Assembly (NCBI GenBank): GCA_963457665.1 | Contig: OY735206.1 | Span: forward strand, 20,972,008 to 21,036,007 | Source of the DNA: Thysanoteuthis rhombus | Lineage: Eukaryota; Mollusca; Cephalopoda; Oegopsida; Thysanoteuthidae | Direction: 5' to 3' | Length of the DNA stretch: 64,000 nucleotides | In this document: piece after piece, positions 5,903 through 40,900 of the stretch | Layout: every line of letters begins with the position of its first letter | How positions within the stretch are numbered: position 1 is the stretch's first letter | Notes under the pieces: model-generated | What the model was told of the DNA's origin: nothing | What the model saw: only the letters and a program-made list of their open reading frames with translations | The model's database searches: none | Made by a program: the position numbers and the translations under genes

Positions 5903-6030
5903 TTAGTATGGTTTGCTATCATTTTTTGGCCTCTTCAGCTGTACTTTCAGTCGTTTCATACCGATCTGAAACCCATTCATGGCCTGAATTGCTGCCTGTG
6001 CCGACAACGGATTGTCATAACTCACAAAAC
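5903..6030 (-). CDS. CELF1/2: CELF exon e12: end of RRM3 and stop codon
   Basis: The coding part of the last coding exon, 128 bp including TAA at 5905-5903, with acceptor tcgattatag preceded by a T-rich tract. It encodes [20 protein letters not shown] and [22 protein letters not shown]. The KNDSKPY end is the CELF1/2 C-terminus. The exon continues into 3' UTR. A consensus donor (CTG|GTGAGT) follows only 22 bases after the stop. Confidence 0.97.
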
Positions 6031-8171: not shown

Positions 8172-11100
8172 AGGCCAACTAATATGACTCAAGATAAAAT
8201 AGATGAAGTAGATAGAATGGTCTCTAGAACAGTGAGATTAAACTCTGAGTTTGTTTATCTAACTATAATTGGATGAATCTGCATGTGTATGCACTGCGAT
8301 AAGTTTTTTTTTTTTAGATTGGTAGTTCTTGATAAATCTTAAGAAAATAGATAGAAAAATTACAGAGCGTACATCATTTTCATGGCTTCTACAGATAATC
8401 TCTTGACTTCTGATCTTTAGAATTATCTAAATTCTAATACAGAATATCTAAATTAGCAACACTGGAGAGAGGTATGTGAAATATGTAGTCTTGTACAACA
8501 GACGGAAAATTAATTTATAAGACAATTAAGGAAAGCTGCTCCATACATCAGAGTCCAGTCTCTTCCAAATCAACACCTTTGGAACAGGTACTGTGTTTGT
8601 AAAGATAATCTAGCCTCTTTGTTTGGAAGGCTTTACGTGTTCTAAGAATTTTGAGTGAACACCATAGCAGGTTGTTCCATACGGCATAAAGTCCAGCCAC
8701 TACCTACCCAGCATCTTTGGAATGGGCTCTGCTGTAGTTAAGATAATGAAGCTTCTTTGTTTGCAAAGCTTCATAAGTGCTAAGAATTTTGGATGAACCC
8801 TATGGTAGACTGCTTCATACAACATAAAGTCCAAACCTTTCCAAACATGCACCTTTGGAGCAGACACTGCCATGGTAAAGATATTTAAGTCAATTTGTTT
8901 GTAAAGTCTTACTATTTTAGGTGAACCCTTGACTATAAATAAGTAAAAAGAAGATGAAGGCAAAGAAAAAAGAGGAAGATGAAAAAAAAGAAAATGAAAA
9001 AGAAAAAAAGAAATAAAGAGGATGAAGAAGAAGAAGAAATAAAGAGGATGAAGAAGAAGAAATAAAGAGGATGAAGAAGAAATAAAGAGGATGAAGAAGA
9101 AGAAATAAAGAGGATGGTGAAGAAGAAATAAAGAGGAAGAAGAAGAAAAAAATGAAGAGGAAGAAAAAGAAATAGAGAGGAAGAAGCAGCAATTCAACAA
9201 CAAACGAGTTACGGTTGCTGAAACACCAACCTTCAGTTTGTTTTCCAGCCGGGGAATTAGCTGCAGCCTGTTGGATCTGTTGGGCTGACTGACTATTAAA
9301 TGCATTTGGGAATGATGCTGAAAGGAGAGAAAGGAAAAAAAAAACAATGCCGATGGTCACTTCCTGAAAGGAACAACATCTCGATCGGGGAGGAAATGCA
9401 ATAATCACAACAGGAGAAACACAGCAACAGACAGTAATCAGATAAGATGCTATTTACAAAGGTGTGCATACAGGGGAAAGGGAATGGCAGATTATCTTTC
9501 AACGCATAATATACAGTGAGTGTTGGTTGGTTGGTTGGTTGATCCTGCTGACACAGGATGGGAGGGGATCAATCGAGGTAAGACATTCTAATTAGTATTT
9601 CCCCCCTTCCTTCCTTCTCCCTCTTCAGTCAACCATTGCCATACACACCAGCATTGAAACCCCCTATCTATCCAATGGGAAATGGAAAAGAGAGAAGAAG
9701 GAAGACAAACAAAATATAGTCTCTTAGTGAGAAAGATATAGGTGAGACTTGGATGATTCTGTCTGAAAAGTGAAAGTAATCATGTTACACCTTGATCCAG
9801 TTAGAAATCTACATAGAGGCGATCATTAATCCCTACTGATATTTATCTATCTATCTAGGTATGTATCAGGACCTGCTTGTATCTTGAAAACAGTGATCAC
9901 CACCCAACAAAAAGTGAGAGAAGTAACTTATTTCCCACCTCTCAACTGATCACCTCCAACACAGTATACACGGATGGTGGTGATCCATAATTTCCCTTGG
10001 AATGCTAGCTCTTTCTTTCACCGGAATTCATAGATCACTCAGACTACGCAATACTATTTACCTAGATTGTATATGCCGTCAAATTTGATGGCAAGGAGTA
10101 ACTCACAATAATAATACTAACAACAATAAACCAACAAAATGCTTAACACACCATACTGTTTGTCTGACCCATACAAGGAAATACTCAGAGACAATATGGA
10201 AATTTCCAATCATAAGCCAACTAATATTCAGTATCGACACTTAAGATGGATGTGTGGGGAAAGCAGAGTAGGTTTGGGGGGGAGTGCCGGCCGATTCTCA
10301 TTCAGTTGATGTGTAAATGCTAAGAATCAATAATCAGCCTTCATAACATTGGCATGGCACAGGTTTCTCTTTGAATGTTACAAGGGGGGAAATAAGAAAA
10401 GAATCGATGATGTATCTAGTGAAGGCATCAATTAGAAAGAGAACATTGGAAAGAAAGAACAAAAAATGTTTTATTCTTCATCTCTCGTGAATAAAGTTTT
10501 TTTCCTTCCCGTACTAAATGAATGCCAATTTCTATAATTGACAATGTTTTTGTATTCTTACATGCATAGGTAATAATTTTTCCTAGAGAAACATCATAAA
10601 CTCAACTGATTATGTTTGTGTATCAATTTACAATTTATCAATTTAGAATGGCTGACTGATAACATTCAGCAAAGAATATAAAAAATTGGAACAAATTACA
10701 TTCATTGTTATAAGTTCATTATATTGTGGAATCCATTGTTATAATAAACTTTACATTATAGAAAAATATGGATATATAATTCATTTCAAATAAGTATTTT
10801 GGAATGACTGATTCTGATTGCGCAAATTCATCAAATTATTATTATAATAATCTTTACATTATTAAAAGATTAAAATAAATTTATAATAATTCATTTTAAA
10901 TAAGCGTCTTTGATGGACCAATGTTGATAGTAATAACTGTTTTATAACATCAGTTATCATAACGAAACTGGCTTCCTCTAAGTAAGCATACTTTGTGACT
11001 AGGGAGACTGAAAGTGATCTGTATGAGAAAAAGGGTTATTGGCTCCTTACCAATCCTACCATACTATCCAATTTTAATAACAATTTTAATCAGACATGTA

Positions 11101-14100
11101 TTCATAGGGCTCCATGTCTTAGAAAAACCCAAAACTATGTTGATTCATTTGAGGCCACTTCAAAAATGAGTTTTTTGCTACCTGGGCCAATTGGTTTTTG
11201 GAATCCTCAGGTACTGCCCGATTGCCCAGTCTGCTTTGAGATGCCACTAAAAAACTAATGTCAAGAATCTTTTCCCACTGATACACTGCCACGGACATGT
11301 CCTGGTTAGTGTTCTTTTTTTCTGTCTTTCAACAATAACAGCATCATCCATAGCCCTCACTGGAATAGGATATCTTTTTCTTAAATCTTACAATGATGTG
11401 TTTGTTACCAGTAATTATTTAGACAGAGGGAGAAAGAGTAGGGACAAAAACATATCTATATTTCATGAATCATCTTAAAATTCACAACTGATTATTTCTT
11501 TTTCAATGTTATTGCCTGTGTTTTTATTAGGATATTCAAATTGGAGGGAAAAAGCTTATAATGTTAATTTTTCTTCAGAATGAAGTGGTACCTCTCTTGA
11601 CAAGGACAATCCATTCTACAAAACATGTCGCTAGATGAAAAATTCTTGAAGGAAATAAATAAATCTATGGGAAACCCAGTAATTAATTCCAAATAAAAGA
11701 TATCAAACTTCCAGATTCTTAATAACAATTTATTTAAGAATAATTTCTAAAAATACTAACACCAAGAAACATATAGATGATGTAATTTATGGATAGATAA
11801 TCTTATTATAATTCAAGCCTATCTAAAAATAATAGATACTAGACATAAATTTAGTTAATCATGAATTAAATCTACATGATCTTGGATAATTTCATTGAAT
11901 TTGATCGTTCTTTATTCTTTTTGTCTCACACACTGAAGATATTCCAAGAGATTTTGGTGGGGCAGCTGGACCTCCTCCACTATGAGAGGTACCACTTTAC
12001 TAAGAAATCAAATTGAGTGATAGAAAGTTCTGCTATAACAGAAGGAAGAAATTAATCAAAACTTTTGATACTGAGAATTTCCAGAAACTAAATGGTATAG
12101 CAAAGAAAGATCATTTGGAATGTTTGTATAAACCAGTGGTTCTCAAACTATGCACGGCATGAATTTTTCTGAAGCAAGCATGTATTTTGAGACATGTCGA
12201 GTCCGTGTATAATGCCCATCCTGCTTTCACAACAGAGATGTCAACCCAATAATGATGAATGAGTATACCTATATGCAGTTGTTATAAAGGTTCAATTCAT
12301 AGACTATTGAAATGTTTTTGCTTAATTCATTTTCACAGTTGGTGTGCCATCAAGTCAAATTTATCCCTTAGTTTGCCTTCACACAAGAAAGTTTGAGAAC
12401 CACTGCTAGAAACATGGGAGAAATTAACATCATTTTTCAAACTGATTTGTTTGTAAAGAGGTAGAACTGAGAAAAAATGATGAAAAACAAAGACAGCATA
12501 TTTTTGCTTGTCAAGATATGTTTTTTTCATCAGCACCCAAAATTGCAAGCCAAGCTGTAAGGAGAAATATTGGAAACGGTGCAGGAGTGAGAGGAGAATT
12601 CGCAGTGAGAAGAAGTTAGTTTGATTAACACAAAAGCAAACCACATATGAAATCGATACACACACAAAGCACATACCAATATCACATTATGGTAACATTG
12701 CAGTAAGGTAAAAATGCATCTTCTTTCAAGCTAGAATGCAAATAACTCTTAAATATTTAGCTGTAATATATCTTACATACGTTGTAGAATACTAACCAAA
12801 TTCACAGCTTGATATTATTCTATTCTAAGATCTGGATTAGATGTAAAAACTTTCCATATATTTTATCCAGGATTATGAATATTTCAAAAAAAACCTTACA
12901 AATATTGTAAATTTTTAGAAATATAAAAAGATTTTTTTATCAATATATGCTGATATTAGTAAATCTTTAAACATTTATTGCATATGTTAAATCATAATGA
13001 GTGAATATCAACTGTGGATAATACAGCAAGACATTGGTCAGAAATGAGATGTGTCATCAACTCAATAGTTACTGCAGGAGACATTGAAATAGAGATGAAA
13101 AAGGAAGAGCCTGTCTCTTGAGAGACAACTCCCAACGGAGTATGGAGGCCTGCGATGAAGACCCAATTTCTGTCCTTGCATCAGTCTCAAGTCAGGTCGA
13201 GACCAGGACTTTATACCAAGAAGTTTTTTATGACCAATTCCCTTTGGGGTATCCGAAGAGATACTTCCACCCTCATCACACAGCTCAAAGAGTACTCAAT
13301 TAGCAGTCAAATACACGGGGAGATTTGTCCAAATGGAGAGTTCTCCACACTCTTCGCTCATACCAAGAATCAAACCCAGAACTTTCTACAGATGTGGCAG
13401 ACATGCTAATCGTCAAACTATCCAAGCAGACCCATGGAAATGGAAACAGGTTCCCATTGGTTATGTCTAATCATCCTCGAATAGGAAAGTAAGCAGAGTT
13501 AGTCTCCTGTAAATCAGGGTATATTAATCGACATTTCCTTCGACAATTATTATGAATTGTTGAGCAAACAATAATATCCTTTTATTACTTTAAACAAATA
13601 TGCAGACTGGAGACAAAGATATGCTCAGGTTTGAAGAAGATTATGATCTAGCTTAAATGAGAACAAATAGCAGCAGGAGATCTTCAGGGAAAATTTTCAG
13701 TTATATTGATTGGGAAAAACTGCAATTACATTCATAGAAACATTATGAATAAATAATCTAAAATTTATGTTAGGCAATACAGCAAGCCAAGTATGAACGG
13801 CCAAATGGTTAATGACACAGAGAATGGGATAGCCAAGCAGAGTTCAAATTCCAGCTGAGATAGCTTTCGCTTCATGGTAAATATAATTAAAAAAAACAAA
13901 ACAAGAAAAAAACACCAATATCTTTTTTGGTGAATACTAAATCAGACATAATAGTAAACCCTGATGGCAACACCGTGGAGGAATTGAAAACATAAAGGGA
14001 ACCCTATGAGTAACACCACAGGCGATAAGCGTTTCTTCTGAAAAATTTTGAGAAGAACTTGGCAAATCAAAAATAAAAAGATATTGATGCACAAACTAAT

Positions 14101-17100
14101 CGAATTTTAATAAGATGTTTTTCTTGTAGAGTTTAGAGTAAAAAAAAAAAAGACATTTACAACAGGGTGAAAATCTTTTGCAACCTTACTGCAATGCATG
14201 GCCAATTGAACAACACATCTAGCAAGCTAATAGAGAGACATTTAGCATTGGCAACAAGAGAGGGAGGAAAGATTGTAGTGAGAAGCATACAAAGAGATGG
14301 CTGCATAAAGAATAAGGAAGCTCCAGTGGTGTAGTGCTGTAGGAACACATCGGAATAATGTTATTTAAGGGGGAGGGCGATGACGTTCTCTCAACATCAA
14401 TATACTACTAAAATTTTCTATATCATTTCTTCTTTCCGTGGGCAGATAGACTTGTGTTCCCTCACTTTGATTTTAAGCACTACACCACTGACGAGGAGAT
14501 GAGTAAAGAGGCAGAACATCCAGTTTTTCTATTCAACAAGCCATTTATAGTCAGTTCAATAGTAAGGATTAGATTTCACAATCTGATCTATAAGAATTCC
14601 ATCAAGCAATTAGAGACAATGCACTGCAGAATGAAATTGAAGATGAGATATATGAAGAGGAGTAAAAAAAAATAATGCACATATTTGTGCTCGTATCTTG
14701 ATTCTTCATTTTAATTTATAAAAATACGAATTTCAAACAAGACATTGCTTTAAGACTAAGCACCTATTCACCTGTGTTTCAGGTCAATTCTATATCATAA
14801 TGATTGGTAATAAAGTGAATAATAGGAAAAAAGTCAAAATCAAGTCCATTGGAATCTGGAACCCTCTGGAACCCTGTATATACGTTGGTAATGGAAAGAG
14901 GTGAACATTAATCTCATGTTCCAAAAGTTATTCCAGGATAGAAACTGCAAAAATTGTGCACATTTGATTCACGTTGAGCTTCCGTGACTATTTCAAAAGT
15001 AGGGCTGTAACTTTTTTTGCTTTTGGATTGGGAAGGGAGAGCAAAGAGATTTAAAAGTCTATGGATATATTTGATATGAATTTTTGAGATGAATAATAAT
15101 AATCATCATTTACTGATATATTCGGATTAGTGTCCTCATCTTGATTGTTAATCACAACGTTTCAGTTGATGTACCCTCCAGGATAATTGAACAATAAGAA
15201 ATTTCTCTCCCTCCATGGCTTGGACGATGGAATGAGAAAAATCTACCCCCAATGATTGAATAAGGGCTTGGTTCAAAATCACCGGAAGGTTACCAAGTAG
15301 GACAAACGCCTAAAAAAGTTTGAAGGGCATAGCAGCCAAAACGTTGTGGCAATCATGACAAAAAGAAAGACGCTAGCCTGAATATCCCAGTGAATGTTAA
15401 GGTCAATCGAGTTAACACTTTATTCCAAAACGCGTTGTGGCAATATTTACAATTTAAAAGGGTGGGAAGAAAAATAAAAAAAAAACCAACAAAAAGTTAT
15501 CAAGAAAGAAAAATTCCCAATAGTGAATATAAAATTAGAATTACAGATTGCACATTAAATATTATTCAATGCTTAAGCAAATATACACTACAATCTTTAT
15601 TGCTTAATTGCAAGGAATAAAATGGACTTGTATTAACAGAAATTTAATTATGCAGGTTAGGTAAACACTCTGCAGTGCTGTCGACATACAGCAATCACAA
15701 GGCATGAACAGGCAATGCCAAGACAAGGGAGGGGAGCAGGGTTGCCATTTGATATTTTTTGAAGACCAAAATTGAGTGAATTTGGGACTAAAAAGCTATT
15801 TGGTTCTAAAAATATAAATTTGGTACGGAAAGAAAATTTACAGAAGATATTCCCTTACATATGAATGTGACCAATATGATACAACAAAAATACATACTAT
15901 CAATGAAGAGAGAAAGAAATGTATATTAATTTAGTTCTTTTCCTTGTAAGCTTAGTTTCTTGATTAGTTCCAAGTTGTTTGATTACTTTTGGTACTAAGG
16001 CTAATTGATTTGGTCCCAAGACCAAACGAATTTGGTCTTGTGCAGCAAAAGACATCTGGCAACCCTGGAAGGGAGGGACGGACATAGGAAGCAAAGAAGA
16101 AAGGGAAGGGAGAGATTTAACGAGTGAGACAGAGAGAGGAAGCAAGCACAAGGCTATGGGGAGATAACCAAATAACAGGTGAAAAGAAAAAAAGCAGGTG
16201 GGAGGAGCGAGAGGAGGAGAAAAATGAAAGGGAGATGAAGATTTGACGGCCACGCCAAAGCCCCACATTAAACTACACGCAAACAGAGTCACACCTGGAA
16301 AAACTATAATAAAACATGAAACAAACCTTTACCTGGAGGGAGCAAACCTGACAAACCTGCATATTGCTGTATCCCCGAATATGCTTGGCTAAGGGCATCA
16401 ATACCTGTCGGATTAGTATTGGTGCCGATGCCATTCATGTTGGTTGTTACACTTGAGGTCAAGCTAGAGAGGTTTGATAAGGAATTGTTCCCAAGAGCTT
16501 GCATTCCAGCGAGGCCACTTAGTGAGTTTGAGGAAGTTGTACCAGTCATAGTACCTGAAAAGCAAACAGACAAAAAAAAAAAAAGAAAACATATAGGTAG
16601 GGAGAAAAACTTATAAACAAACAAAACAAAAATTTTCTTCTATACAAATATCATAGCATAGCTTGGTTTCGCAAGATTTTCAAGGGCTTTCCACATCTTT
16701 CAGGTCCTCAGGTGCAAGCATGTCCTGTCTATGGATAGTCCTAAAGCTTGCTGAATGGAGCTTTACATGACTAAACCCATTTTTCAAATCTAGGTTTTCC
16801 ATGCCACGGCTCCCCAGAGTGGTACAATGGGAACAAGAAAAAGAACACACACACAGGAAGCTGCGAATTGTATTCACTTTTCAGACAGGGTCTCTTGGAT
16901 AACAATAATCGACTGATAACATTAGGCAAAGGATATAAAAATTGAAGCAATTTACATTCATTGTTATAAGATATATGGTATAAGTGAATATTTCAAGATA
17001 ACTTTCAGTTCAATTCAAATTAAGTGTTTTGGACAAACTGATTTGGATAATAACTGTTTAATAACATTATCTGTGATTATTAGAAACAGCACCACTTATA

Positions 17101-20100
17101 AAAGATGAATACACAGGTGTATACTGTTAGTAGATCTTTATTCAAAGAGGGCTCAATAAACAGAGACAATGTTGGAGATAAATCTCTCTCTCTCCAACTT
17201 ATCATAAATGCATCTTCAATTGTTCATCTTATTTACACTGACCACACCAAATGATACATTCACCGTGTAATAACAAGAGATCATTTCAAATGAAGTTTTC
17301 AAGTAGAGTAGTTTATAATTATTTCAGTCAGATTTTATATCCATTTCTCAATAATATAAATAAAATTGACTGAAATGGAAAAAAGTTTTTTTATGAATAT
17401 TCCTGAATCTAAGTCCTGTCTGAATGAGTTAGACATTCCCAAACAAAGCTGATATAAGATGGGCTACAGTGAATGTTTTGTTTCTCAGAGACTTTCAATT
17501 AGATTCAATATTTCAGATGTATGGTACTTGTAAAATCAGCAATTCATGCTGAGAGGAGCAGATATGTTGAGTGGAAATAAAATGGAGCTGAAAAAACAGG
17601 TAAATCCATGTTGGCAAATGGGTTTCTTCATGGAAGTGAAAGAGTGTGAATCGCGGAGACAGATATTGGCAACTGCTGTAGCAGTTATTGATTAGAATTT
17701 TTTAAATCAGGGTTGCCAGATTTGGTTAGAAAAGGGAATAATCTGACTTTATCTCAGAGATTTAGCCCAGACAGGTATTGGAATAATATTGAATGTGAAA
17801 ATAGAGTGAGCTTGGAGGCTGGGGTTCAATACCAGCCTCTCAAGACAGGCCCCCTTCGTGTGGCTGGCATTGAACCTCCATCTCCAGACTTGCTCGATTT
17901 CCAAATCGATGCTGTTCTCTTTGAGATAAAACTTAGATCATTTCCTCTTCTGGCTAAATTTGGTAACCCCATTTCAAATCATCTGCAATGAAACAACAAA
18001 AATTAATTATAACCACAACACAGTCAGCACGCACTCAGAGTGATAGGCGTGCAAAGGCAAGACAACAAAACAGAACCAACTCTAACAATTCTATCTGCAG
18101 GAAGCCACGATTGCTACCAATGAGCGGCTTAGGATGAAATGAAGTGAAAAACGATACAAATCATCACAGATAAGGTTCAAGTGAAAACTAAGAGGACATT
18201 AACTTTAAAATCATTTTCGGTAAAACCTTTGTCCAATAAGTGATAACAGGTAAGATGCAGTGGTGGGCACAGCTAACAAAAAATGTTGGAGTGATAAACC
18301 ACTAAAAATTTATCACAAGCATAGATAACCGATAAAAAGAACTTTCATAATATGAATTTAGCTTTGGTTCTTTTGGCTCTAAAACCCTTAAAACCAGACT
18401 TAGAGAGCTGAAATTTTAATATTTTGTAGCTTAGAGATTTCCAAAAGATACAATGATGTAGGTGAACATGAATAATCAAATGCACGAATCAAATTAAACA
18501 TTAATTTGCACTCAACATACAGTTTATTCAAAGCTCTATCTCTAAGCTACAACATATCGAAATATCAGTTCTTGAGGTCGGTTTCCAGAGTTTTTTAAGC
18601 ACAGAACAAATCAAAATCAAGCCAATCTCATAAGTAAAAGTTAATGGTTATCCTTGCTTCCACAAAATTTCAAGCCGTTTATCAGTTGTGCTTTTTCATT
18701 AGTTGTGCCCACCATTGATGATATATGAAAATAGGCAGCATTCCATGTGCTCTCATAATACTCACTCATTCGAGCTGAAAATGCAATTCACAGAAAATTC
18801 AACAATTAGAAACAATGATATTTTTGAAGTTTTTGTCAATAGGAGAGTTGGCTATAGCATTTTTGTTTCAGATAAAAAGAGCAGATAGCAATTATTATAT
18901 AAGTAAAGAGGGTATCAACCAGAAATTTTCGTTGTAATGTCACTTATTGCAATGGCACTATTTACAAGTTATCATTAGATCATCCTTCACGGAATACTCT
19001 CTCTATATATATATATCTATATATACACACACTAAAGATCTGGGAGAGAAATCATCCAACCTATCGTCAATAGTGGTGCATTTTTTCAGTTTTAATCCAA
19101 GTACTTAAAAAAGTTACAATTTGAAAATGACCAAAATAGATCTTATTACAGGGATTCCACTAATGAAAAGAACGGCGAAACAATATTGCCACGAGAATTA
19201 ATAACTCAACTAAAATTTTGCCAATGTTTTTAATTGAGTTTGAAATAGATTTATATATATATATATATATATGCATACACATATATACACACTGAACAGA
19301 AAATTTGAAAAGATTCTACCACCAACTCAAAACAGTGAGTCTACAAATTGTTTATTAAATTTGCTCAACTCTAAAATAATATCTTTAGATCATCAATATT
19401 ATTAGATGAAGTATTTTAATCAAAAAATATTGATTTATCCCAAATCATGTTGATTTTTTAATGAAATGACCAACTTAGCAAAAAGTTTTCTGCATTTCAG
19501 ATAACTTATGAATTGGGTGTTGGTTTCCAAGAAAGTCAACTGCGTTATAACCAAGCCATAATCAATTTGGCTGTTTGGGCTTTTATCTAGGTATTTTGTA
19601 GCTAGATTAATACTTACTGGTTCACCATTGACCCATGTTATAACGTTAACCAAGTCATAATGAAGGCATCTAATGCTTTTTATAGAAGATGAAACCGTAC
19701 ATAATTTCATTAAACAATCTATTTTCTTTGTTGCAAGAGGATGCTAAATAAATGATGTTGAAAAGATGATGTTTACAGCAACAATAACCACAACGAGAGC
19801 AAAACAAAATTTGCAAGGGGGATGGGGGACAGATAAACAAACCATTGACAACATTGAAAGATGAAAGTAAATTAACAATGAAAACACACAAAGGTTCCAA
19901 TAATCCTCCTCCCAAATTCACAACAATCACAAGACAAATACATTAGAAACATCCAGGAAAAACGATAGTGTATACAAAAGAAGCAATTTCTACTGAGTAT
20001 TTGAATGATGCACCAAAAAAAAAAGAAAAAAAAAAAAAAAGAATTTCTTACCCACTCCTTGAAAAGTTATGAGAACCAATAATATAACTCGCAAATCCAT

Positions 20101-23100: not shown

Positions 23101-26100
23101 TCAAAAAGATCTATAGATGGGCTAGTCATGGATGAGTGAAAGCGTGGTTGATGAGGCTCTACTGTATACTTCAATATTCCTTTAACAAAATCTTCAGCCA
23201 ATATTCAATCCTTGGAAGTGAAAACTTACCTGATGCATTGGAAGCATTGGTGTTTCCTGCAAGTTGGTTTAATGCTGCAAGGTTTTGCATTCCCAAAGCA
23301 TTCAAAGAACCTGAAAACAGAAAAGAAACAAGTTAGATGTCATAGTTAAGGACATTACACAAATGGAGACTGACTGCTATGTGTGAGGTTCATTTTTATG
23401 GCTTTGTCAGGGTTAAGAAAGTTTTGGCATCCTTTCGAATAATGACTATATGGGTGGGCAGTCACACCAAAAAAGTTGAGAATCCCTATTCCATGGTCAC
23501 AAGTAAACCTAACTAATTGGATATAAAGGTAAATGCTCCCAGTGTGCTCATTAACCTTTTTATATTATTCCTTACATCTGATTAACAATGTCTGCCCTAC
23601 TTGAGTTGTGAAAGAACAACTGAAAGAATTAAGATGATGAATAGTAGACAAAATCAATACAATGGTTCATAATACCTTATCTAAGAGAAAGAAAAAGAGG
23701 AAAATCGCTATCACAGTTAATAACTGAACAACCATAGCACCAAAATTTGAAGTCATGTAAAAACATTTCATCAAAGAATAAATATTGTCAGAATAAATTA
23801 TATTTATGACATCACTGGCATTTCCTACAGGAAAACATCTAAAATTGTGCAGAAAAAATCTAGATGTTATTTCCACTGGAAAATACATAAATTCTCCAAA
23901 ATTTTCACTCAAAATAGAGTAAAAATTCTGGAGAATCAACATACGTAAAAATGAAGCTCCCCCCCCCCCCAACATTTTTAGGAGGGGTCTAGTGGGGGTA
24001 CTGATGCCAATATTCAAGTCTGTAGACAAAACAGCATATTCAGGAGTGCTGGAACACACTAACACACGCTCATATAAAAAGAGATAAAACCTGTCACCAA
24101 CTTCAGTGGCAACAGTTGTTCAATAATTGTAAAATGGTCTTTCTCAAGTGGGAATAAAATTTTTGGCTTAAGTTGAAGTTAAAGCAATCAGTTCAGAGTG
24201 ATAAATTGCTAACAAACGGAATTACCACTGGTGATTTATCAGCAAACACTCACTCTAGGATGGCAAGCCTTTGGCAAAGCAAGCTCAACCTTCAAAAACA
24301 AGATGATCCCATGTGAAGAGTATGCAACCAATGCATCCTCCCAATAGTCACTTATAGAGCTGAAACATGGAACCTAACCAAAAAACAGACTTGCAAACTG
24401 AAAGGCATGCAACACGCGCATGAGAGAATCACGCTCAACCTCACATGGAGAGATCACGAGACAGCATAGTATATCAGGAAGGAAACAGCAATCTGAGACA
24501 TCAAAGAATCTATTAGAAAACTCAAATGGCAATGGGCAGGTCATGTTAAAAGTATGGCAGACAACATGGAACCCCAGAGATTACATGCAAAACCAAGGTT
24601 GACAGAATACAAGATGGAGAGATGAAGTAGACAAATTCAGAAAATACTAGCTCTGCAACGCCCATGATAGAGAATTGTGGCCAACCTTAGGGAAGGTCTA
24701 TGTTCAACAATGGACGATAAAAGACTGATGATGATGATTTCAGAGTTAACAAATTAATCATTTTTCAGCAAGATCTGGCTGATTTTTTTTCCAATTAAGC
24801 CAATAAATATCTCCAAAAGCCAATTAAATATGGTATGTTTAATAAAAGTAAACATTAAATATTTTTTGATAATTTGTTCAGGAGTATCAACAGAAATTGT
24901 ATCAAGTGGGAGTTTATGCATATATTATTTAAACATTTAAAATATACAAAATACATAGACAAAATTCAGCTGATTTCATTCATTTCTAGAAAAAGTTTCA
25001 GTTATAGATACCAAAGCCTCCTTGGCAACATTGAGTAATTGTTCTAGAGAGTGTTAGGGTTGATATTGTGAGTAACTTATCGGGAATTCGGCCAATAAGA
25101 GGTTAATCAGAGAATAAGAAAAGTTGGCAATGAATGTTATGTGGAAAAGAGGAAAATAGGGAGACTTCACTGACAATGAGAAAGAATAAAAAAGCATTAA
25201 CACCAAACATATTTTGGAAGGTTAAGTCTCGGCAAAGAGACGAAACTCTTTACATTTGATTCAAAGACATAATTTTGCAGACTGATGAATGTTTGCAGAG
25301 AAGAGAGAGAAGCAGTAGGAGCGAGAGACGGAGGAGAAAGAAGAGAAAGAGATAAAAATGAGAGCGAGAGAGAAAATTGTAGGGTTTACAAGGAAAACTT
25401 CAATATTAAAATCATTTTGGCAACATTCCCCAAACCCAAACATTAGCAATTTTGTTACGTGGGGGGAGGGGGGGGTGTCTGCATGAAAAAGAAAGAGAAG
25501 AAAAAATAAAAGAAAAATTCATGAAAGAGAATAATTTCTCACCTGGGTTGCCAGAAGCATTTGCCAATGCTGTCAAACTCTGAAGGTTCTGTAAATGTTG
25601 CAAATTATTGGTTTCCCCTGAAAGTACGGAAATTATTTACGTCATCAGAAAAATGAAAAATTTCGGAATGAATCCGAAGAAATTTATAAAAGAAAAGTTC
25701 AAAGGAAAACTGATATAATTTGATGATAATGCAAAATTGTTCATTGTGATTGGAGAAAAGGTATGTACAAAAGATGAAGAAAAAATACTTAGAAAACTGA
25801 GATATATCAATGAATCTTTTTGACTCTGAAAAAGGAAAAACTCTGCTTAGACAGGAGCAACATAGCATCGAGTCTCTTGTGTGTTGAATCAAAGAATTGA
25901 AAAATAAACTGAGCAGTCTAGTTGAATGCGTACAGGTGTATGCATTATCTATTTATATAATATGCTATGGAATGGGCTATTTTTTTTCTTTGTAACATTT
26001 GTGAAGGGAGATGGCTAAGTTATCTCCCTCAATTATTTTTTTACAAATGAGTAAAAAATCCGGGGTCCATTCTGGTTGAACACAAATAAGGAGAGGACAA

Positions 26101-29100
26101 TATAATATGTTTGATATTTTCTATAACATTGAAAAGAGTCATACCAACTTTCTTCCGAATAATTAGATTTCTTTTCATCTTCTAAGTAGTCACAACGTAT
26201 TGGCCTAATCATTTCTACAGACCTCTTAAGGAGTAAAATATAATATCTGTAAGGGAAGAAGTCTCACCTATTGGTCTCCTCTTCCAGTGGTTCAAAACAA
26301 AGAAACAACAAAAAACAACAAAAAACAGTATCACAGAAAATTGAAACATAAATGCAACATTTGTAAATATTATATTTCAGAAACGTTTGCAACACAGCTT
26401 GTTTCATATTTCAACTGTAAGAAGAGACCAATAGCAGAGACTCGTCAACTAATTTCGAAGTATCAATGAATTAAACTCTCTTCAGTAATTGACTGTTTGG
26501 AGTTATCTAGGTAGATGGTATTAGTGATTAATTTTCACAGCAAAAGAGGTGCTGAGTTACAAGTCAATCATGGCTAACCTTAAGATATCACCAATGATTA
26601 ATTAGCTTCCTAGTTTAAAGGAGAACCAGAAGTTAAGACATACTGTTTATCAGAAGAGTTAAGACCAGTTGCCTGGACTTTTTTTTCTACAGATGGTACA
26701 TAGAGAATTTTGACAGTATATTGGATATTACTATTTACATCAGAAGGTGTTTCTGGAAATGACTTGTCTGGAATGTTGTGATTACCGAGATGAAAAAGAA
26801 AGATCAAATTGTCCGAGAAAATGTCGGGATGTTCTTGATATTTAGATTCATTCCAAAATAGTGCAATTGCAAAATTATTCAAGTACTCAAGTCATTTCCT
26901 AATGGCATACATACATTTGGTAACAGGTAAGAAAAATATGGTATAAGGAGAAAAAAAAAACAAAAAACAATTAGAGAATGGAATAGCAAGCTGGGATTGT
27001 GGGTACAAACAGATCAACATAGCATCGAGAGTGAAAAATTTCAGCAAGCAATAGATAAGTTGTGTAGGGAGGGGGGGGGCTAAAAAGCTAGAAATTTATC
27101 GAACTTGCTTCAATATAGCCATTGCTGACACAAAATCCCTCCAAACTAAAAGAAAATAATTAGAATAATCACATCCTACATTTCTTAGTGTTTAACATAA
27201 ACTTTGAACCGAACGATGAGTGAAAATGAATTGAATTTAATTGAATGTGGAGAATTTTATGCATTACTCAAACCAAACCCATTGAATAACAGATGAGGCG
27301 ATTCCTCTTCCACTGAGAAATATATTTAAATCAAATGAATTAGATAAAAAAAAATTAATTTGAGCTACAAATTAAGTGCACAAGATATAAAAAGGTAGAT
27401 ACCTTTTTTTTTAAAATCATATTTTATTTGATGGAATTCAAATTAATGTCAGTTGTAACAGTGCGCAACATAGAAATAAAGGGCACTCGCAGTCAGAAAT
27501 TCATGGGTTTCAGCTCACTATTTAATCAGTTTTTCTATCTGGCCAATAGGACTACAGCACCTTCGGGATGCTTCAAGTTTCATTTTATTCACCAAAATAT
27601 ACAGTGTGTATACATATATATATATCCATTACTATATATGACATGGAGGAGAAACAATTCTATAATCTCTGCCCAAATCACATTCCAAGAAATTTAGTCA
27701 TGGCTATCCCTTGAGGTTGAGGAGGATGGTCTCCGTCACATAGAACGAAGACGCCTCTGCATGTATTTGTTCAGCATGTACTTGTGGTTGCACTCCAAGA
27801 CGCATACGATATACTTCACAAATCAATCAACTTATTCCAATGGCAAGGAATCCGAGACGATAGGAACTGATTGATCAGTTATATTGACTTTTCTATTTAC
27901 AGTGGAGGCTTGGCAAAGAATATACGCCAAGAGATAAGTATCTTTTTTTAAAAACTATTTTAAGAAATTCTCAAATGATAGATAACATGACATTTTGAAA
28001 GTATGCTGGATAGGTTTTTTCAATGATAAATTGCTTAAAACAAACATCAAGTATTTTTCTTATCATCATAACTTTAATATTAACAGTGACACTAGTGAAA
28101 AACATATCCCCATCCAAATTCAAATCAATTAAAATCATTTTTTTTTTTAATTGAAAAAAATTAAAAAATTTCTAAACCTCAGTTTTATATGTAAACTACT
28201 TTCATATAAATGTACTGATTCAACTTGTGCAATTCAAACATTGGATAGGATTTCAAAGCTTTTCAAAACCAAAGCTAAGAAACTGACACCTCTAACTATA
28301 AAGCAGAAAAATTTCAATTTCTGATAACAGTCCAAGTCTTTTTAATTATCATTATTGGATTAATATTGTAATACAATCTATTCTAAGAATAATTTGTCTT
28401 ATTTATCTTTTCTTAAAATTTATCTCATATCAAGTCAAATATGTAAACAACAAAAACATGGTGTCGATAGTGAGAACAGATTTTGAAAGTACAAATCAGC
28501 TCCTACGAAACCATGAAAGACTCGGTGGCTTAATGCTTATGGCAGCCAAGCATATACTGGACTCCCTTTGGAATAAGGATTGGACTTTGAGTCCTACTGG
28601 AATGGACCTAATGGCCCTAATAAAAAGTTGTGAAAAAAAAATTTAAAAAATTAAGATAAAAGTAAAAAGTGGTCAAAATTGATAATGAAAAAACGGTGCA
28701 GTCCAATTGACCAATCACTACCATATATTTCAATTAGACAAAATTTCCCAACATGAAGAAAACTAGCACTAGGGTTGCAAGATTTGGCCAGAAGGGGAGA
28801 TAATCAAATTGGAATAATGTTGAACTTGGGTATTGAGCAAGTCAAGAGGCAGAGGTTCAGTACCAGCCACTTACACATGGTCAACGTCAAGAGGTTGGTA
28901 TTGAAACTGTTGCCTGTCTGAGTAAGCCTCTGAGATAAAGCTTGGTCTATTTCCCTTTGTAGTAAAATCTGGCAACCCTGACAAGCACTTAGATCCAGCC
29001 ATCCAGCAAAAGCTCTAAAAAGATTCTTTTATATTAATGGACATTTTATGAGAAAGCCGAAAATCTCTCCATTTTCAAAGTTTTCTCAATTCTCAAAATG

Positions 29101-32100: not shown

Positions 32101-35100
32101 AGAAAAAAAAAATCTATGGTTGCTAAACAAAATGATTTTTTTTTTAAATTTTTAGTAAGATAGAACTTTTTTCTCAGGTAAACAAGATGGAATAGATATA
32201 CTAATGTACCATTTTTCCCCTTTGATAAGACGCATTCCCCACCCCCCTAAAAAAATCACGCTGCAATTCAACTCTCAAAAGGTCAAATTGTAAGGAGGAG
32301 TTAGTCAATTCTCACAAACCCCAGTCAAGAGATATAAGCACTCACAAATCCCTAATATACAAGCCCAACTAATCATAGGGCGTGTCTTACCACTTGTAGC
32401 ATCTTATCAGCAGGGAAATACGGCAAGTAAACCAAATAAAGAGTCATCATTGAACAAATCCAAAAACAGTGAAATGGATCCAGGATTGCAAGGCCCATGC
32501 TTATATTATCAAAATCAGAAGAAAAATATTCTTTGAAATCAAAAGAAAACGAAAAAGTTGAAAAAAAGGGGATGCAAGATATTCATACATTCAAGCAGTT
32601 CATTGGCAGGACAATTATCGTGCATAAATAAAATATTTGACCAAGAAAATTCGGAGAAAATGTGAAAACAGGCAAAATACAACAGTTAAGAACTGAGTGA
32701 TAATGAAATAAATGTTAAGCAGGAACTGAAAAAATGGGTGAATTGGTTAGAGAGAAAATGAGGAACAAGAATTTAGGTGATTGCATGCTTAGCCACAATA
32801 CAGCACAGCTCTCCTGAGGTCATGAAGTACAAACATGGGGGGGGATGTGAAAGAAAGATAGCAGATGAGGAGGAAAGTTGAGAAACTTAAGTGCCACTAA
32901 CTCACAAGAACCAACAGCTGGAAATTTACAGCCCTTATCTTAAAACTAAATCTCCCCCAGATTACTATTTTGTTTACTACCAGTGCCTCAGGATGGCCAA
33001 CTAATCACACTATACCTGTTCGAAAAGACAAGAAAAGTTGCCTTACTTTTTCTCGTTGGTCACAGCAAGTTGATAAAACTTTAACAACGTTGAAAGATAA
33101 GTTTTGAAACGGTTCCTGCTTGATTGGCTCAGGTGTTATTTTCTGGATAACTTACAAATAAATCTCAAATTTTTATTCTGGCTTATATCTTGATTGAAAT
33201 ACAATTTATTCATATCCTACGATTAATTCGTAGTGAAACCGAGAGTTCAACTCATGAGTTGGAATTTAATTTTATAGGAATAATAAGGCAAAGGATCATG
33301 GCCAGAACATATTATGAGGCTTTACAAGGCTTTAAACAGAATTTGAATCAGGAGCCTCTACCACCTCATTGCTGCAAACACTATTGACTAATATCAATAT
33401 TTGATAATTCTTGGCGGGGGAGAACCTCTGCTGACCACAAGGCTCTAAGCAGCTATTTAGTTAACTTATGCTCTGAACCAGCTCTGCAAACAATATTTTG
33501 AATGTTTATAATAATTATCTCATGGGCATCACCAGATTACTTTTGAATCAAGAGACAATATTATACCTCCTTGGTGCTGCTAACACTATTGACCATCATC
33601 AATATTTGATAATTCTTAGGGAGGGCCCTCTACTTGCTACAGGGCTCTGAGCAGCCATTTAGATAACTTATACTTTGAAAAAGCTCGGCAAACAATATTT
33701 TGAATGATTATGATTAATATCTCTTGGATATCACCTGATTACTTTTGAATCAAATGAACATATCATGGACACCACTTTGGCTTCAAGACCAATAGTTCAA
33801 TCAACCAATAAACCTCAGAAACAAACTAAATTCCTCACTATAATGGTTAGTCAATCTACATATATACATGTAAGTAAAACAACAAACTGAGCAACTGCAT
33901 AGATGCGGGTTAGAAATAGCTCAATTTCAACAAAAAAACAAATACTAAAGCCAATTAGTATCAAAGGCAATAATGCTACCTAATCCGATAAATTTAAGCA
34001 ACTATTTTGTCTTCTGTGAGCTTTTCACTGTAATTAGCATCACATGACAAATGGTATGATATCAGTGTAGGAAAACTCATAAAGTAACAATCCAATTTCC
34101 TCACAAAAATCTTCTAGTGAGTTGTGTTATGGGATAGGTCGAACTTGAGAGTATCCAAAAAAGGACTTCATCAGACTTTCTAATTCAGCTTGGGATTCTT
34201 GAGTGATTAAAACTAAAACCAAAATGTTACTTCAAAGTATGTATACGCGCATCATGTTTAACAGGTTTTGATAAACAGGCATTGCTCTGTTCTCCATTGG
34301 TTATTTGTAACTAATCAAACCCTGTTGGTTGGAGCAGTAAGCATTCAAGACTACTCAGAGGTAGGTGAGGGAACACTATATTTGATGGCAAATAAGACCC
34401 CCATCACAATTACCGAAAATGACAAAAGGTAGAAAATGCAAAAGATGCATTGCCAGTCACACAGACTGGCTTAGGAATTAGAAAAAAAAAAATGGGTGAG
34501 AAGAATTCCGGGAAATTTTTCTCTCTTAGTGGTTTCAACAAAGATCTTTATAGGATGCATTCCGAGATTCAGGACTGCAAAATATGCATTCTTTTTTCTA
34601 GCAATACCATCTATACTTTCCTGATATAACTATGAGTAACTTTACAACCTAGTTCCGGTGATCTCAACGAAACGGGTAGCACAGTTGAGAGTATAAAGGT
34701 AAAAAAACCCATGTAGCATTGAAGGTGTGAACATTCCCCGCTGAAAAGGGGGGGTCTAATATGCCATCAAACATGACGAATCTAAGGTGAGTGTAGGTAG
34801 TGATAGTGTTGATTGCAAGTTTTGCATAAAAGGTGTTTGATAGTATTGAAAATGACATTCGTGGGTGCCTATACCAGTGGAAAGATGAAAAGGTAAAGTC
34901 AGAAGATTTGGCGGAGATGTGAGAAAAGAAGTTCCTTCGAACAATTGGGGCAGGGTTTGAAAGAGAAGAACAAAGGAAACAATAGCAGGTTAATCCTTGG
35001 TCTTACAGATAAAAAACATCCAAGTTGAAAATAGTATACAAAGATTCCAGTAAGTAATGCAAAGGCATCAAAAAGTAGAGGTATAAAACATATTGATTAG

Positions 35101-37865
35101 ATATCACTCAAATATTGGAGTTGAAAGCCAATAATCTGTTTGTTATATGAATTTCACACACCAGGGATTCATTTAGGGAAGATGGTAACAGTGCATCTGA
35201 CGTACAAAACACTTGTTCTAATTTCTTTTTTAAATTTGGGCATGTGATAAAGAACAAATTGATGGCTTTTAACTTCATTATTGTGTTGATATCTGAGCGA
35301 TATGTTGAATAGTTATACATTTTGAAGTCATTGTATGCTAAGTTTAACAACCTTATTTTACATTCATAAGACCACAGTTCACCCAACAGCAGGTCGAAGA
35401 GAGATACAGAATAAGAAAGAGGTAGAGAGATGAGGTGGGAGGTGTCCAATGTAGAATATAGAGATACAAGAGAGGGGGGAGAGCTGGGGGGGGTCAAAAG
35501 CAGGATATAGAGAGGGATACAAAAGACAAGAGAGAGCAAAGACGTGGGGGCATGGGGGGTGTCAAATGCAGGATATAGAGAGAGATACTGAAGACAAGAG
35601 AGAGCAAAGACGTGGGGGCATGGGGGTGTCAAATGCAGGATATAGAGAGAGATACAGAAGACGAGAGGGGGAGCAAAGAGGTGGGGGCATGGGGGAGTGT
35701 CAAATGCAGGATATGGAGAGAGATAGAGAAGACGAGAGAGAGAGAGCAGAGAGGTGGGGGCATGGGGGGAGTGTCAAATGCTGGTTTGTGCATCAAACAT
35801 GTGATTGCAGTGATGGAGACAGCTGCACAGCATGAGCAGAGAGCATGAACAAGGGCCAAACCACAACCCAAAGCATTCCGTTGCTCATATGCAAACCAGA
35901 TCCTGTTTTTTTATTCATTTCAAGATGAAGGTTAAAGTACCTGTCATAGTAGACGATGAACCGCCCGCGCCACTATTGCTGGCCCCCAGCGATGCCATTG
36001 TAGCCGCTGCTGCCGCTGCAAGGGCTGCCGCTGCAGCAGACGGTGCAGTGGACGAAGTGGAAGAGGAGGAGGAAGGGGAGCAGGCAGAAGTAGCAGTAGT
36101 GTTATTGGTTAGACTGCCAGCATTTAACCCCGCGAGGGCTGCCAATACGCCTGCAGGTTATAAGGGGACACAAAAAAAAAAAAAAAAAAAAAAAAAAAGT
36201 GTCAGAGTGTAAGACAACATCAAAAAAACAACAACAACAACAAAAAAAACAAATGAAATTTTTAAAAAAAGTTCAATACTGTGAAAACACGTGAAAGTAA
36301 TAAAAAAAATGATCCTCACATTCTAAGGAAGTGAGAATGCTCATCAATAACAATTTGCAATTTAGCAGCCAAGAAACAATGTAAGATTAGTAAAAGTTGT
36401 AATAATAGTAGAAATTGCAGTTTTACAGTAAGTATAATTAATAGATAATGTGCAGTGTTAGGAATGAGTATTTTAATACAAAGTTCCTAAACTAGTTCAT
36501 TTTTAAGGAAATCTAGAAAAATGAATACCGATGAAAATTTAGGAATATTCAGTGTTTATATAAAATAAATGTTGACGAAACAAGACAAAATAAATAAGTC
36601 AATATTCATACATGCAATCCTCAGTTATTTCTAAATCAAATTATTAGAAACTTCTCCAATATTTCAAGCTCTACAGATTTTAGTAAAGTTGATTTTTTTC
36701 CAGGCAATATACAGAAGGAAAAAATGAACAATACAATATGATTTTTTTTAACAAGCATGCTAAAATTTCTCATTGGAATCTCCAAAATGTATATAGCAAT
36801 CCCATTATCAGCAGCCCAATTATTTTAAATAAGAGAAAGAAAACAATATATTCTACATCAAAATAGGCTGGGCCCCATTTATTCCTTCTTTTCAAATAAA
36901 GATTCTGATAGTCAACAAAGGTTGATGGTTGAAAGGACTGTTCTTTTGCAGCTTATAATAGACCCACGAATCTTAAAAGTGTTTATATTTTTCATATTAC
37001 ACTAAGAATTGTTCTATCAACTATCAATGACAAAAAGGTTTGAACTAATGTAGATTATGAAAAAAATGTGGTAAAAGTTTGGCTAATTTTGAAAATTCAA
37101 CAGAATACCAAGCATTCAATGGATCTATCTTATAAGGTTGTCAATATCAAGAAAGAGAAATTTCTATTAAGATAGTTAAATGGAACTTTAAAATGAGAAA
37201 CAACAGATTTCTAACATCGGAACAAATTAAACTGTTATGATCTAATGAGTTTCATAAGTGCTCCAATTTAAAAACATAATATAACTTCAAAGATAACTAA
37301 GGATTACAATATTGGACATGACTCAATGTTGTATGTATAGACTTTATTTAGAGCAGGTGGTCATTTGGTATTTTCCATGGCCGAAATTGAGCAAATTGGG
37401 CACAAAAATAAAGATTTGGCACAGAACATGAATTTACACCAGATAACAATCCATTAAACACTGATCCTGAGAAATAACATAAATAGATATAAAATATATA
37501 TTTTAATCCCTTCTTCCTGCAAGCTTAGTCTGACAATGGATTCCATCATTTTGGTACTGAGGCTACTTTATTAGGTCCCCAGACCTTACAAATTTGGTCA
37601 TGTGTGGTCAAATGACATCTGGCAACCCTAAAAAGCTACCATTCTAGAATTAATCAATTTATATAGTGAGATTATTTCAAACAAATGAAATCACTGATTC
37701 AAGAGTAGTTCTTCTAAAGAAGGAGTGACTACCAAAAATATTAAAGAAAAAAAAAAAACACTACTTGAGTACTTATAAAAGAGTGAGCAAAAAACAACTA
37801 ATCAAGGCTGCTATAATGCAAGAGTAATGAAGCTATTAAAACAAATTAGTTTGTTCTCCTAATTT

Positions 37866-37920
<55 letters not shown>

Positions 37921-40900
37921 GTATAGACAGACAGACAAAATGACAGTCTAGTCAGAAAGTAGAAAGATAGAGAACATACTTTTTGCCCCCACACCCTCCA
38001 AAATTCGGACTTATTTCCTAGCCCCTACCCCCCCTTTACAATTTACTTATTCTCTTCTGCATGACAACATATAATTAGATCAGTATACATACATAATCAA
38101 TAGTGACACAATATGTATGAGATGAACTAGGAAGGTGGTAAGCATTTTTCAAGACAGTGACTAGTAAAGGCGGTTATAGAATTACTATAGAAGTAGTAGT
38201 AGTAGTAGTAGAAGCAGTAGCAGCTTGTGTTACTAATAAGTAGGAACATCACTACATCGACGTTCAGCCTTTCTTTTCTAGACAGCTAGCAGTTGGGTGC
38301 TCCTCTATAGACACAAATAACGACACAATTCATACAAAATTCATGATTTAATCGACTCAACTTAAGAGTAAAGCAAGATGAACAAAGAATACAAAACATT
38401 CAGTGGTAACATGTTGAAATACGTGCATGGCACAAAAACATTTTAATGGACACAAAATAATTGTTTCATAATATTTCTTAGTAAAAAAATTATAAACTCC
38501 AAGATATTATTTTAAATATTCACACTTTGTGTGAGTCATCAGCTTAAGAAATAGTGTATTTTTTGTTGCAGTTTTATATGACTTCTGTAAGCAAACATCT
38601 TAAAACAAAATCAATAAGACATGAATATATATATATTTGATAATGTGGAAAAACTGACTAAATTATAAGCTTTTCATATACTTCTAATTTACAATTGTGC
38701 ATTTCACATTAGTAACAACATCAGATGGGATTAAAATAATTTTAGAAATTGTATGAGGTCCAACGTTATTATGGGGAACATTTGATTGATCACATTTTGG
38801 CAGCATTATTTTCTTTGCTCTTAAATACTGCTAATCTTATGGTTTCTAAAACTTTGTATCCCTCTTCTTGTTCGTCTTCAATGGTATTTCATTTTGTTTT
38901 GTTTTAATAGAAGCCAAAGAATTCAAAGTATTCAAGAGAGAACCCAATAACGCTGGCAATAAATGATATCACATGGTATCCATAATGTTGGACCTCACAT
39001 TCTTTTATATTATTTGAATCTGATCTGACCACACGACTAATGCAAAATGCACAATTGGAAATAAAAGGTACATAAAAAAATTTATAATTTAGTTGTTTTC
39101 CCAAATTATCAAATTACACATTAAGAAAATCTTTCCACTTATACAGAAATATATACATATATATATCTATATATTTATTTGAAAGTTAGACTGGCAATGG
39201 CAGTAAGATAAGGTAACAAATGAAATATTAGTTGATTATTCCCATTAGTTTTAACATTACCTATGAGCAGCTAGAAGCTATAGATTGAAAAGAAATCTGT
39301 CATGCAATCCAAACTGGAATCCAAAGGAACACCATTGAAGATTGCTTAATGGTAATAAGGAAGTGATAAGTGTTTATACATATGAGCTCAAAATTAAAAT
39401 TTGTTTTCATTTTCACTGAAATTAAGGTGTTAGTCAAAAGAAATCTATATATCAAAAACACAAAACAAAAAAACTAAACGAGGGAAAGTGCATTCAGAGC
39501 TGATTTCCTACCAACTAAAAGGCAAACGTCCACAACTCTAGACAAGGCAGAGTTGGTGGTACCAGTGCATCAAGAACTGTCCACTGTTGATCATTAAATC
39601 TGCAAGTTTGTGTTTCTGCCATTTTTAGTTACTTTTGAAGAGTTATGATACCATATGTGACGCAAGCTCACAACCAAAATTCCATGCCTTAGCCCAGCTG
39701 GAGGAAGGAGTTTTTCGTGGCGCAAGATATTGAAGTGGAAATAAAGCAGTTCACATACTGGAAAAAATCTTGCTGGAAAAGGTCAACAGTATGTCCTTGT
39801 GAATGCACGGACACAAACCAACTTGGCGCAAGATTTCTATTGCGGCCATTGAATATCAACTGATATTTCATCTGTCTTTTTCCCACCTGCCATATACCGT
39901 TGAGCCAGACAATCTTCGAATGGTTCATAATCACACTGAATTCAGAAACGCAACACAAATAGTCCACAAATAAAGACATCTTGACCCATTAAATGTGAAT
40001 GACGGGAACTTATCAAGTTCTATGGCATACTCAACAAAATTTCCGTTCCATTGTGATTGATATAATCTGTTAGTCAAGTCCTGTACCTTGCAATGGATAA
40101 GGGTTTTCATTTTGCAATGGACAACTATTAGTCTTCGCCACCTGCCACAGTTAATGGGTAAAGTCAGTGTAAAATGATCAAAAGTGTATCAATGATCAAA
40201 GTGTGGGTGTGTGCATGCACAAATCTTATTTGATACTGGAGTTTCAACAAAAGAAAAACAAAAACAGGTGAGTGAGAATTGTAAGGGAATTCAGTATTAC
40301 CTGGATTATTGCCAGTTGCAGCGGCTGCTGCTGCTGCAGTCAATAATTGTTGAATACCCATTGTGTTCAACCCTAAAAGACAAAAGAAAGGAATTTAGAA
40401 CAAACACACACACAAAGAGACGGTAGATGGATGAATCTACACAAGAAAGAAAAATGGCCAAGTGAAATTGTAGATGTCATTTCAAAGTTTCACCGATGGG
40501 CCTGAACATTACGGCCAGCAACAGGTGGCCAGAAACAGTATTTATTTCTGAATCATGTCTCAATTAAATTCATGAATAAATCAGCAGGTTATAGACACAT
40601 ATGGGTCAGCTGAAAAAATCGAAACTGCAACCAATAAGGTAGCCACTTCAACATAGTCCTTGAGTTAAACAGCCTAACAGAAGGTCCAAAGAAACCATTC
40701 TGTACCTACTCTTTTCATTTCTATTCATTCACTAACCATGTCTATACAGTTTGTTTCTAAAGCAGACAATTATATCATTATGATTTGAAACCCTATTTGA
40801 AGTGACCTATAGTTGTTACATGAGAAAGAGTCACTGCCTACACAGCAGAAATAAACAAGGAGTCGAACCTGTGATTAATAGGATAACAGCTTTAACATAC

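Follow-up and report, generated by a model that had tools for sequence, protein, structure and literature searches.

A six-exon linker array in a CELF1/2-type gene of the squid Thysanoteuthis rhombus, some of whose exons are probably tissue-regulated cassettes

Six consecutive exons of identical phase, placed between the second and third RNA-recognition motifs (RRM2 and RRM3) of a CELF-type gene, raise the question of whether the linker between these domains is varied by alternative splicing or whether the shared phase has another origin. The gene is located in a 64,000-nucleotide (nt) stretch of the genome of the squid Thysanoteuthis rhombus (GenBank assembly GCA_963457665.1, contig OY735206.1, positions 20,972,008 to 21,036,007), which is referred to as the window and supplies all coordinates given below. 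We favour, as the probable though far from certain answer, that the six exons (e5–e10) form a linker array of a CELF1/2-type gene in which some exons are tissue-regulated cassettes. A first-pass annotation had described the spacer between RRM2 and RRM3 as a combinatorial module. The lengths, phases and frame neutrality of that description hold, and whole-exon skipping has precedents among CELF genes, but symmetry alone is insufficient to make the spacer such a module.

A translated search located CELF-type coding exons on the window's minus strand, after which the splice junctions were read directly. Twelve exons (e1–e12; 132, 80, 138, 85, 72, 210, 75, 81, 222, 87, 144 and 128 nt) join into a single open frame whose sole stop is at its end. 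The joined protein contains Pfam RRM_1 in two stretches (E 2.6e-37). RRM3 has CELF2 RRM3 as its best PDB match (E 1.1e-52, with all 90 residues aligned), and the top PDB matches of the RRM2 stretch are CELF2 and CELF1 chains (E 3.4e-52 and 2.9e-51, respectively, figures that apply to the whole two-RRM chain). For the RRM2 domain alone, the scores are 121 bits against CELF2 and 116 bits against CELF1, compared with 96–100 bits against Bruno-like 4, a TNRC4 variant and Bruno-like 5, whose chains span 102–105 residues; by these bit scores, as distinct from a tree, RRM2 is nearer to CELF1/2 than to CELF3-6. With all exons included the spacer measures 314 residues, the long divergent linker characteristic of the CELF family. 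Judged by its sequence, the locus is the 3′ part, from RRM2 to the stop codon, of a gene for a CELF1/2-type (Bruno-like) RNA-binding protein, and binding to GU-rich RNA, a trait of the CELF/Bruno-like family, is predicted for its product. Within the window, the RRM1 portion of the query found nothing beyond RRM2 cross-matches and weak hits, and RRM1 is expected past the window end. A pattern search matched 33 stretches in prokaryotic collections and 21 in viral ones, none of which encoded a relative.

The array itself consists of e5 (40301–40372, minus strand as for all exons; 72 nt), which matches a segment of the CELF1 linker, the Ser/Ala/Thr-rich e6 (35941–36150; 210 nt), e7 (25543–25617; 75 nt), e8 (23230–23310; 81 nt), which has the top summed splice-site score of the six, e9 (16333–16554; 222 nt), which carries a CELF1-like motif of 13 residues, and e10 (9231–9317; 87 nt), which ends the linker and has the weakest donor (GAAG followed by gttggt). 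All six are bounded by AG acceptors and GT donors and are of phase 1-1; the first-pass coordinates, lengths and phases were reproduced in full. The introns between e4 and e11 are 2.2–10.3 kb long, each at least 2.2 kb. Upstream of the array, the first half of RRM2 is encoded by e1 (58506–58637; 132 nt, 1-1), with PDB matches to CELF2 and CELF1 and a placement like that of exon 5 (135 nt) of the Drosophila gene Bru-3, and its second part by e2 (53907–53986; 80 nt, 1-0), the same length as Bru-3 exon 7. The end of RRM2 and the start of the linker lie in e3 (46132–46269; 138 nt, 0-0), placed like Bru-3 exon 9 (144 nt, 0-0), and the glycine-rich beginning of the linker continues in e4 (43634–43718; 85 nt, 0-1), which is not frame-neutral. 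Downstream, e11 (6744–6887; 144 nt, 1-1) encodes the first half of RRM3, matching mouse CUGBP2 exon 14 in length and position, and e12 (5903–6030; 128 nt to the stop codon, 1-0) encodes the second half, Bru-3 exon 14 likewise being 128 nt long.

Any of the 64 subsets of e5–e10 can be joined without loss of frame, as had been proposed: in one open frame, all 64 leave RRM3 intact and end at the normal stop, and they give 60 distinct spacer lengths. These lengths run from 65 to 314 residues, measured from KFADTQ to NLFIYHLP, which corrects the earlier range of about 105 to 320. The figure of 64 is an arithmetic one rather than a count of observed forms. Exon e3 had been considered skippable on its own, and its omission does keep the frame, but it codes for 13 residues that end RRM2 in alignment with the RRM2 end of CELF1/2; e3 is frame-neutral, yet not function-neutral, and is not a free cassette. 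Two further 1-1 exons, e1 and e11, were absent from the first-pass annotation. Since these encode halves of RRM2 and RRM3, symmetry alone does not define a cassette.

In a search by length, each of the six reported exons scored highest among the open 1-1 candidates of its length, with a lead of over 5 score units on the runner-up. The 36.7 kb from e4 to e11 were also scanned for 1-1 exons of 60–250 nt, with home-made splice matrices and with cut-offs set with the known exons in view; this returned seven candidates on the minus strand and none on the plus strand. The seven are e5, e6, e7, e8, e9, an e6 variant of 90 nt and an extra candidate at 8932–8708; e10 is missing because its donor score of 1.387 falls below the cut-off of 1.4. 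The extra candidate (8708–8932, minus strand), the only one between e4 and e11, lies mostly over a 138-bp tandem repeat (8536–8859) and bears no likeness to CELF by eye. The 90-nt form of e6 begins at an in-frame acceptor within the exon (36030, minus strand) and scores 6.8, against 6.4 for the 210-nt form. The end of e9 (16333–16357, minus strand) contains three AG/GT sites (here and below, the slash within a site marks the splice position), of which the inner two would shorten the exon in frame by 15 or 24 nt.

It is very unlikely, in our estimation, that some of the exons are mis-bounded or unused, the first suspects being e6, through entry at 36030, and e10. The slightly higher score of the 90-nt form, the weakness of the e10 donor and the little or no separate CELF1 similarity of e6 and e10 argue for such an error, but the lead of the reported exons over their same-length competitors and the absence of passing candidates on the plus strand argue against it.

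The phase layout can be compared with that of relatives. The exons of Bru-3 measure 135, 80, 144, 274, 99, 78, 177 and 128 nt (PMC2767349), and their phases, counted back from the stop, are 1-1, 1-0, 0-0, 0-1, 1-1, 1-1, 1-1 and 1-0. Because this order is the same as in the squid gene and two of the lengths are identical (80 and 128 nt), the layout is most simply inherited; the symmetric phase-1 linker would then, on sequence comparison, be an old design of the CELF family, with more exons here than in Bru-3. Besides the order of phases from RRM to stop and the 80- and 128-nt exons, the two genes have in common a 78-nt 1-1 linker exon that is skipped in the fly and long introns. They differ in that the stretch from exon 10 to the RRM3 exon of Bru-3 holds two symmetric exons, of 99 and 78 nt, compared with six here, and in that the Bru-3 RRM3 exon, at 177 nt, exceeds e11 by 33 nt that are presumably linker; furthermore, PMC2767349 describes two RRMs in total.

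The Drosophila data also provide counts of skipping. Of 100 cDNA clones, 54 lack the 78-nt linker exon (Table 1 tally, PMC2767349), whereas 5 lack its 99-nt neighbour, always in multi-exon skips. Exon 9, the 144-nt counterpart of e3, is likewise absent from 5 of 100 clones, always with other exons, and exon 5, placed like e1, from 58 of 100 (PMC2767349). Free use of every subset is unlikely given the disparity between the 99-nt and 78-nt exons, and we regard use of all 64 combinations in the squid gene as unlikely. Skipping in Bru-3 is confined to exons adjoining introns of at least 800 nt (PMC2767349), and the introns from e4 to e11 all exceed this length.

In Caenorhabditis elegans etr-1, exons 5, 6, 8 and 10 are skipped (PMC7341121). 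Of more than 100 known isoforms, only 19 contain the Gln-rich exon 8, which lies between RRM2 and RRM3; animals with a stop in this exon are viable and show a neuron-migration phenotype (PMC7341121). The other of these skipped exons with a stated composition, exon 10, is rich in Ser/Asn and Ala; exons 8 and 10 never occur together, and the linker position of exon 10 is deduced. Mouse CUGBP2/CELF2 exon 14 shares with e11 its length of 144 nt, its frame neutrality and its coding of the first half of RRM3, and is skipped in 8.1% of transcripts in brain, 19.5% in liver and 22.1% in kidney (PMC3368720); the difference from the squid array is that its skipping removes part of RRM3, not linker. For squid, RNA editing of CELF2 is described in a cephalopod genome paper (PMC9068888), and the excerpts of the Daphnia, Bru1 and CELF1-UTR (untranslated region) papers (PMC9565731, PMC11081514, PMC8742084) do not mention linker exons. 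By analogy with the fly, worm and mouse genes, regulated use of some of e5–e10 is, on balance, the likelier case.

Sequence likeness within the array points to a further possible source of the shared phase. The peptides of e5, e7, e8 and e9 match the linker of human CELF1 above shuffles (p 0.0005–0.003). Of these, e5, e7 and e8 all align to the same segment of that linker, near GLNAMQLQNLAALAAA (p 0.0005, 0.0025 and 0.0030), and are of similar size (72, 75 and 81 nt); their summed three-way similarity has p 0.00075 under global alignment and 0.004 under local alignment. They could therefore be copies of one ancestral symmetric exon, in which case duplication gave the array part of its phase; we consider this a serious possibility, albeit one with less than even chances. 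The mutual exclusion of etr-1 exons 8 and 10 (PMC7341121) also agrees with it. However, pairwise comparisons are mixed and depend on the method (p 0.005–0.008 for e5–e7, 0.05–0.08 for e5–e8 and 0.01–0.13 for e7–e8), the three exons show no similarity to each other at the DNA level, and the trio was picked post hoc from 20 possible triples. Moreover, the lowest p among the 21 protein pairs (0.002) belongs to e4–e10, outside the trio, so low-complexity likeness also arises elsewhere in the linker. A duplication origin can coexist with tissue-regulated use of the array, and the copies may have stayed alternatives to each other.

A candidate regulatory signal was found in front of e5. A candidate branch site, TTCAT, is enclosed by a GU-rich pair (40404–40443, minus strand): one member is a TGTGT at −71, and the other a run of TG in which four TGTGT overlap, their starts falling at −42 to −36. 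This arrangement is reminiscent of CUGBP2, where UGUGU and GU motifs on either side of the branch sites let the protein silence exon 6 of its own gene (PMC2715136). In the strict form, with UGUGU on both sides, e5 alone fits among the 12 exons, compared with 0.094% of 18002 sampled intronic windows of 100 nt (chance 0.011 for 12 exons); the published rule also includes conservation. In the 100 nt upstream of e5–e10, TGTGT occurs seven times against 1.2 expected (p 0.012), five of them at e5, TGTTT ten times against 2.0 (p 0.001) and TGTNTGT six times against 0.5 (p 0.002), and the corresponding downstream counts are 0, 6 (p 0.028) and 0. These counts were set aside because the acceptor tracts are T-rich while the background is deep intron. 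The RBFOX motif TGCATG is found within 100 nt of e5–e10 never upstream and once downstream (p 0.12).

The comparison with CUGBP2 exon 6 involves two exons of the squid gene. That exon is frame-shifting and its loss truncates the protein in RRM2 (PMC2715136), as for e2, whose skipping shifts the frame and leads to a stop in e3 ten residues past the junction codon; its GU-rich branch-site motifs, by contrast, find their counterpart at the linker exon e5, not at e2. By analogy, e2 is a possible counterpart of the autoregulated exon. Upstream of e2 there is a TG run as well, with its start at −115 to −107 and hence beyond the 100 nt of the rule. CELF protein bound to the GU-rich sites round the e5 branch site might silence e5. 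Taken further, CELF would bind the UGUGU pair at e5, and perhaps at e8, and silence the exon, such that rising CELF levels would shorten or re-compose the protein's own disordered linker. We think this scheme improbable. If true, self-tuning through e5 would constitute a homeostatic loop on the properties of the protein, beside the known loop on protein amount via the frame-shifting RRM2 exon (here e2).

If e5–e10 are an array with some tissue-regulated cassettes, the short exons e5, e7, e8 and e10 would be the likeliest to be regulated. Lying between introns of 2.2–10.3 kb, the exons would be recognized by exon definition and be prone to skipping. The linker, 315 residues in the span analysed, consists above all of Ala, Gly, Ser, Leu, Asn, Thr and Gln, and exon inclusion would alter how much of this material separates the RNA-binding units, with partner binding or condensation being affected more than RNA recognition. 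Such an effect of skipping is likely in view of the functions of the CELF1 divergent domain, which represses an exon when tethered (PMC4448682), and of the CELF2 hinge, which drives the formation of condensates required for CELF2 splicing activity (preprint PMC12869637). Parts of the linker can suffice: in earlier work that PMC3368720 cites, exon inclusion was activated by RRM1-2 carrying 70 linker residues or by RRM3 carrying 119. In the CELF2 hinge, one Asp, D388, matters (PMC12869637). The sole Asp of e4–e10 is carried by e9, which contains two aromatic residues, unlike the CELF2 region, which has none (PMC12869637).

Several points weigh against regulated use, the first of which concerns the coding sequence itself. 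Among AG/G sites in the linker, 12 of 16 are in phase 1 (8 of 12 without the four real junctions), as are 43 of 73 G/G sites. The run of seven phase-1 introns from e4/e5 to e10/e11 has a p value of 0.13 under the AG/G null (0.06 without the real junctions) and of 0.025 under the G/G null, compared with 2e-4 at a phase-1 share of 0.3, the genome-like value. The run is thus only mildly unusual within this linker. Six of the seven junctions read Gly, and e9/e10 reads Ala; the phase-1 position in glycine codons can largely account for the symmetry without regulation.

On these grounds e5–e10 could be constitutive exons whose common phase is a by-product of AG/G-like intron sites, most of which, the linker being glycine-rich, follow the first base of a glycine codon. 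The 1-1 symmetry of the RRM-half exons e1 and e11 fits this explanation, as does the Bru-3 99-nt linker exon (69 nt in one clone), which is kept in 95 of 100 clones (PMC2767349). We nonetheless find it rather unlikely in view of the use of Drosophila and C. elegans linker exons and of the mouse 144-nt exon as cassettes, the length of the flanking introns and the p value of 0.025 under the G/G null.

Other points bear on the signals and on the peptides. Weak splice sites, considered as a sign of cassette use, show no group difference: by the home-made matrix, e5–e10 do not score lower as a group, either for donors (1.4–9.0, against 3.4–7.9 for e1–e4 and e11) or for acceptors (2.5–11.0, against 2.7–8.4 for e1–e4, e11 and e12). 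In our version of the branch-site rule, with UGUGU paired with GU, e5 and e8 fit (2 of 12 exons, against 5.8% of intronic windows), and the chance of at least 2 of 12 is 0.15, or 0.04 if the six linker exons are considered. The GU pair at e5 is a lead only, the rule having been framed post hoc and the acceptors being T-richer than the background. Similarity to the CELF1 linker is marginal for e6 (p 0.049), and in alignments against shuffles it is not significant for e10 (p 0.23) and e4 (p 0.93). Regions of FUS or TAF15 can substitute for the CELF2 hinge (PMC12869637), so the exact make-up of the linker may matter little. Finally, skipping of e5–e10 is a prediction from genomic sequence and from CELF genes of other animals.

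The introns contain several repeats. Inverted repeats, whose pairing in RNA could select exons, were sought in 16000–44000; e10 and its adjoining introns lie outside this range. Among the best 25 of 28 pairs, 23 are AT microsatellites, and one of the other two is a local hairpin (18376–18600). An inverted repeat at 17707–17740 and 28948–28981 (34 nt, 82%, with 17 nt exact) flanks e7 and e8 and could favour their joint skipping or the formation of circular RNA. Just downstream of the e10 donor lies a purine-rich tandem repeat (8945–9193; pyrimidine-rich on the gene strand), with nine TCTT/CTCTCT motifs in 100 nt. The e4–e5 intron contains a minisatellite (43095–43337) with a 22-nt unit in 9.6 copies and 98% matches at 43095–43307. 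In the e2–e3 intron, a diverged but full-length match to 5S rRNA (49953–50072, plus strand; 50.8 bits, gathering threshold 38) has many broken pairs and is perhaps a pseudogene or a 5S-derived repeat.

In the array we see an extended version of an already known CELF gene design rather than a new system or mechanism. Its frame-neutral linker layout is common to Drosophila and the squid gene, with more exons in the latter. CELF linkers influence partner binding, condensation and splicing activity, and a worm linker exon has a phenotype of its own. The six separable linker exons of T. rhombus would offer a natural series in which linker length and composition can be related to the activity of a splicing factor.

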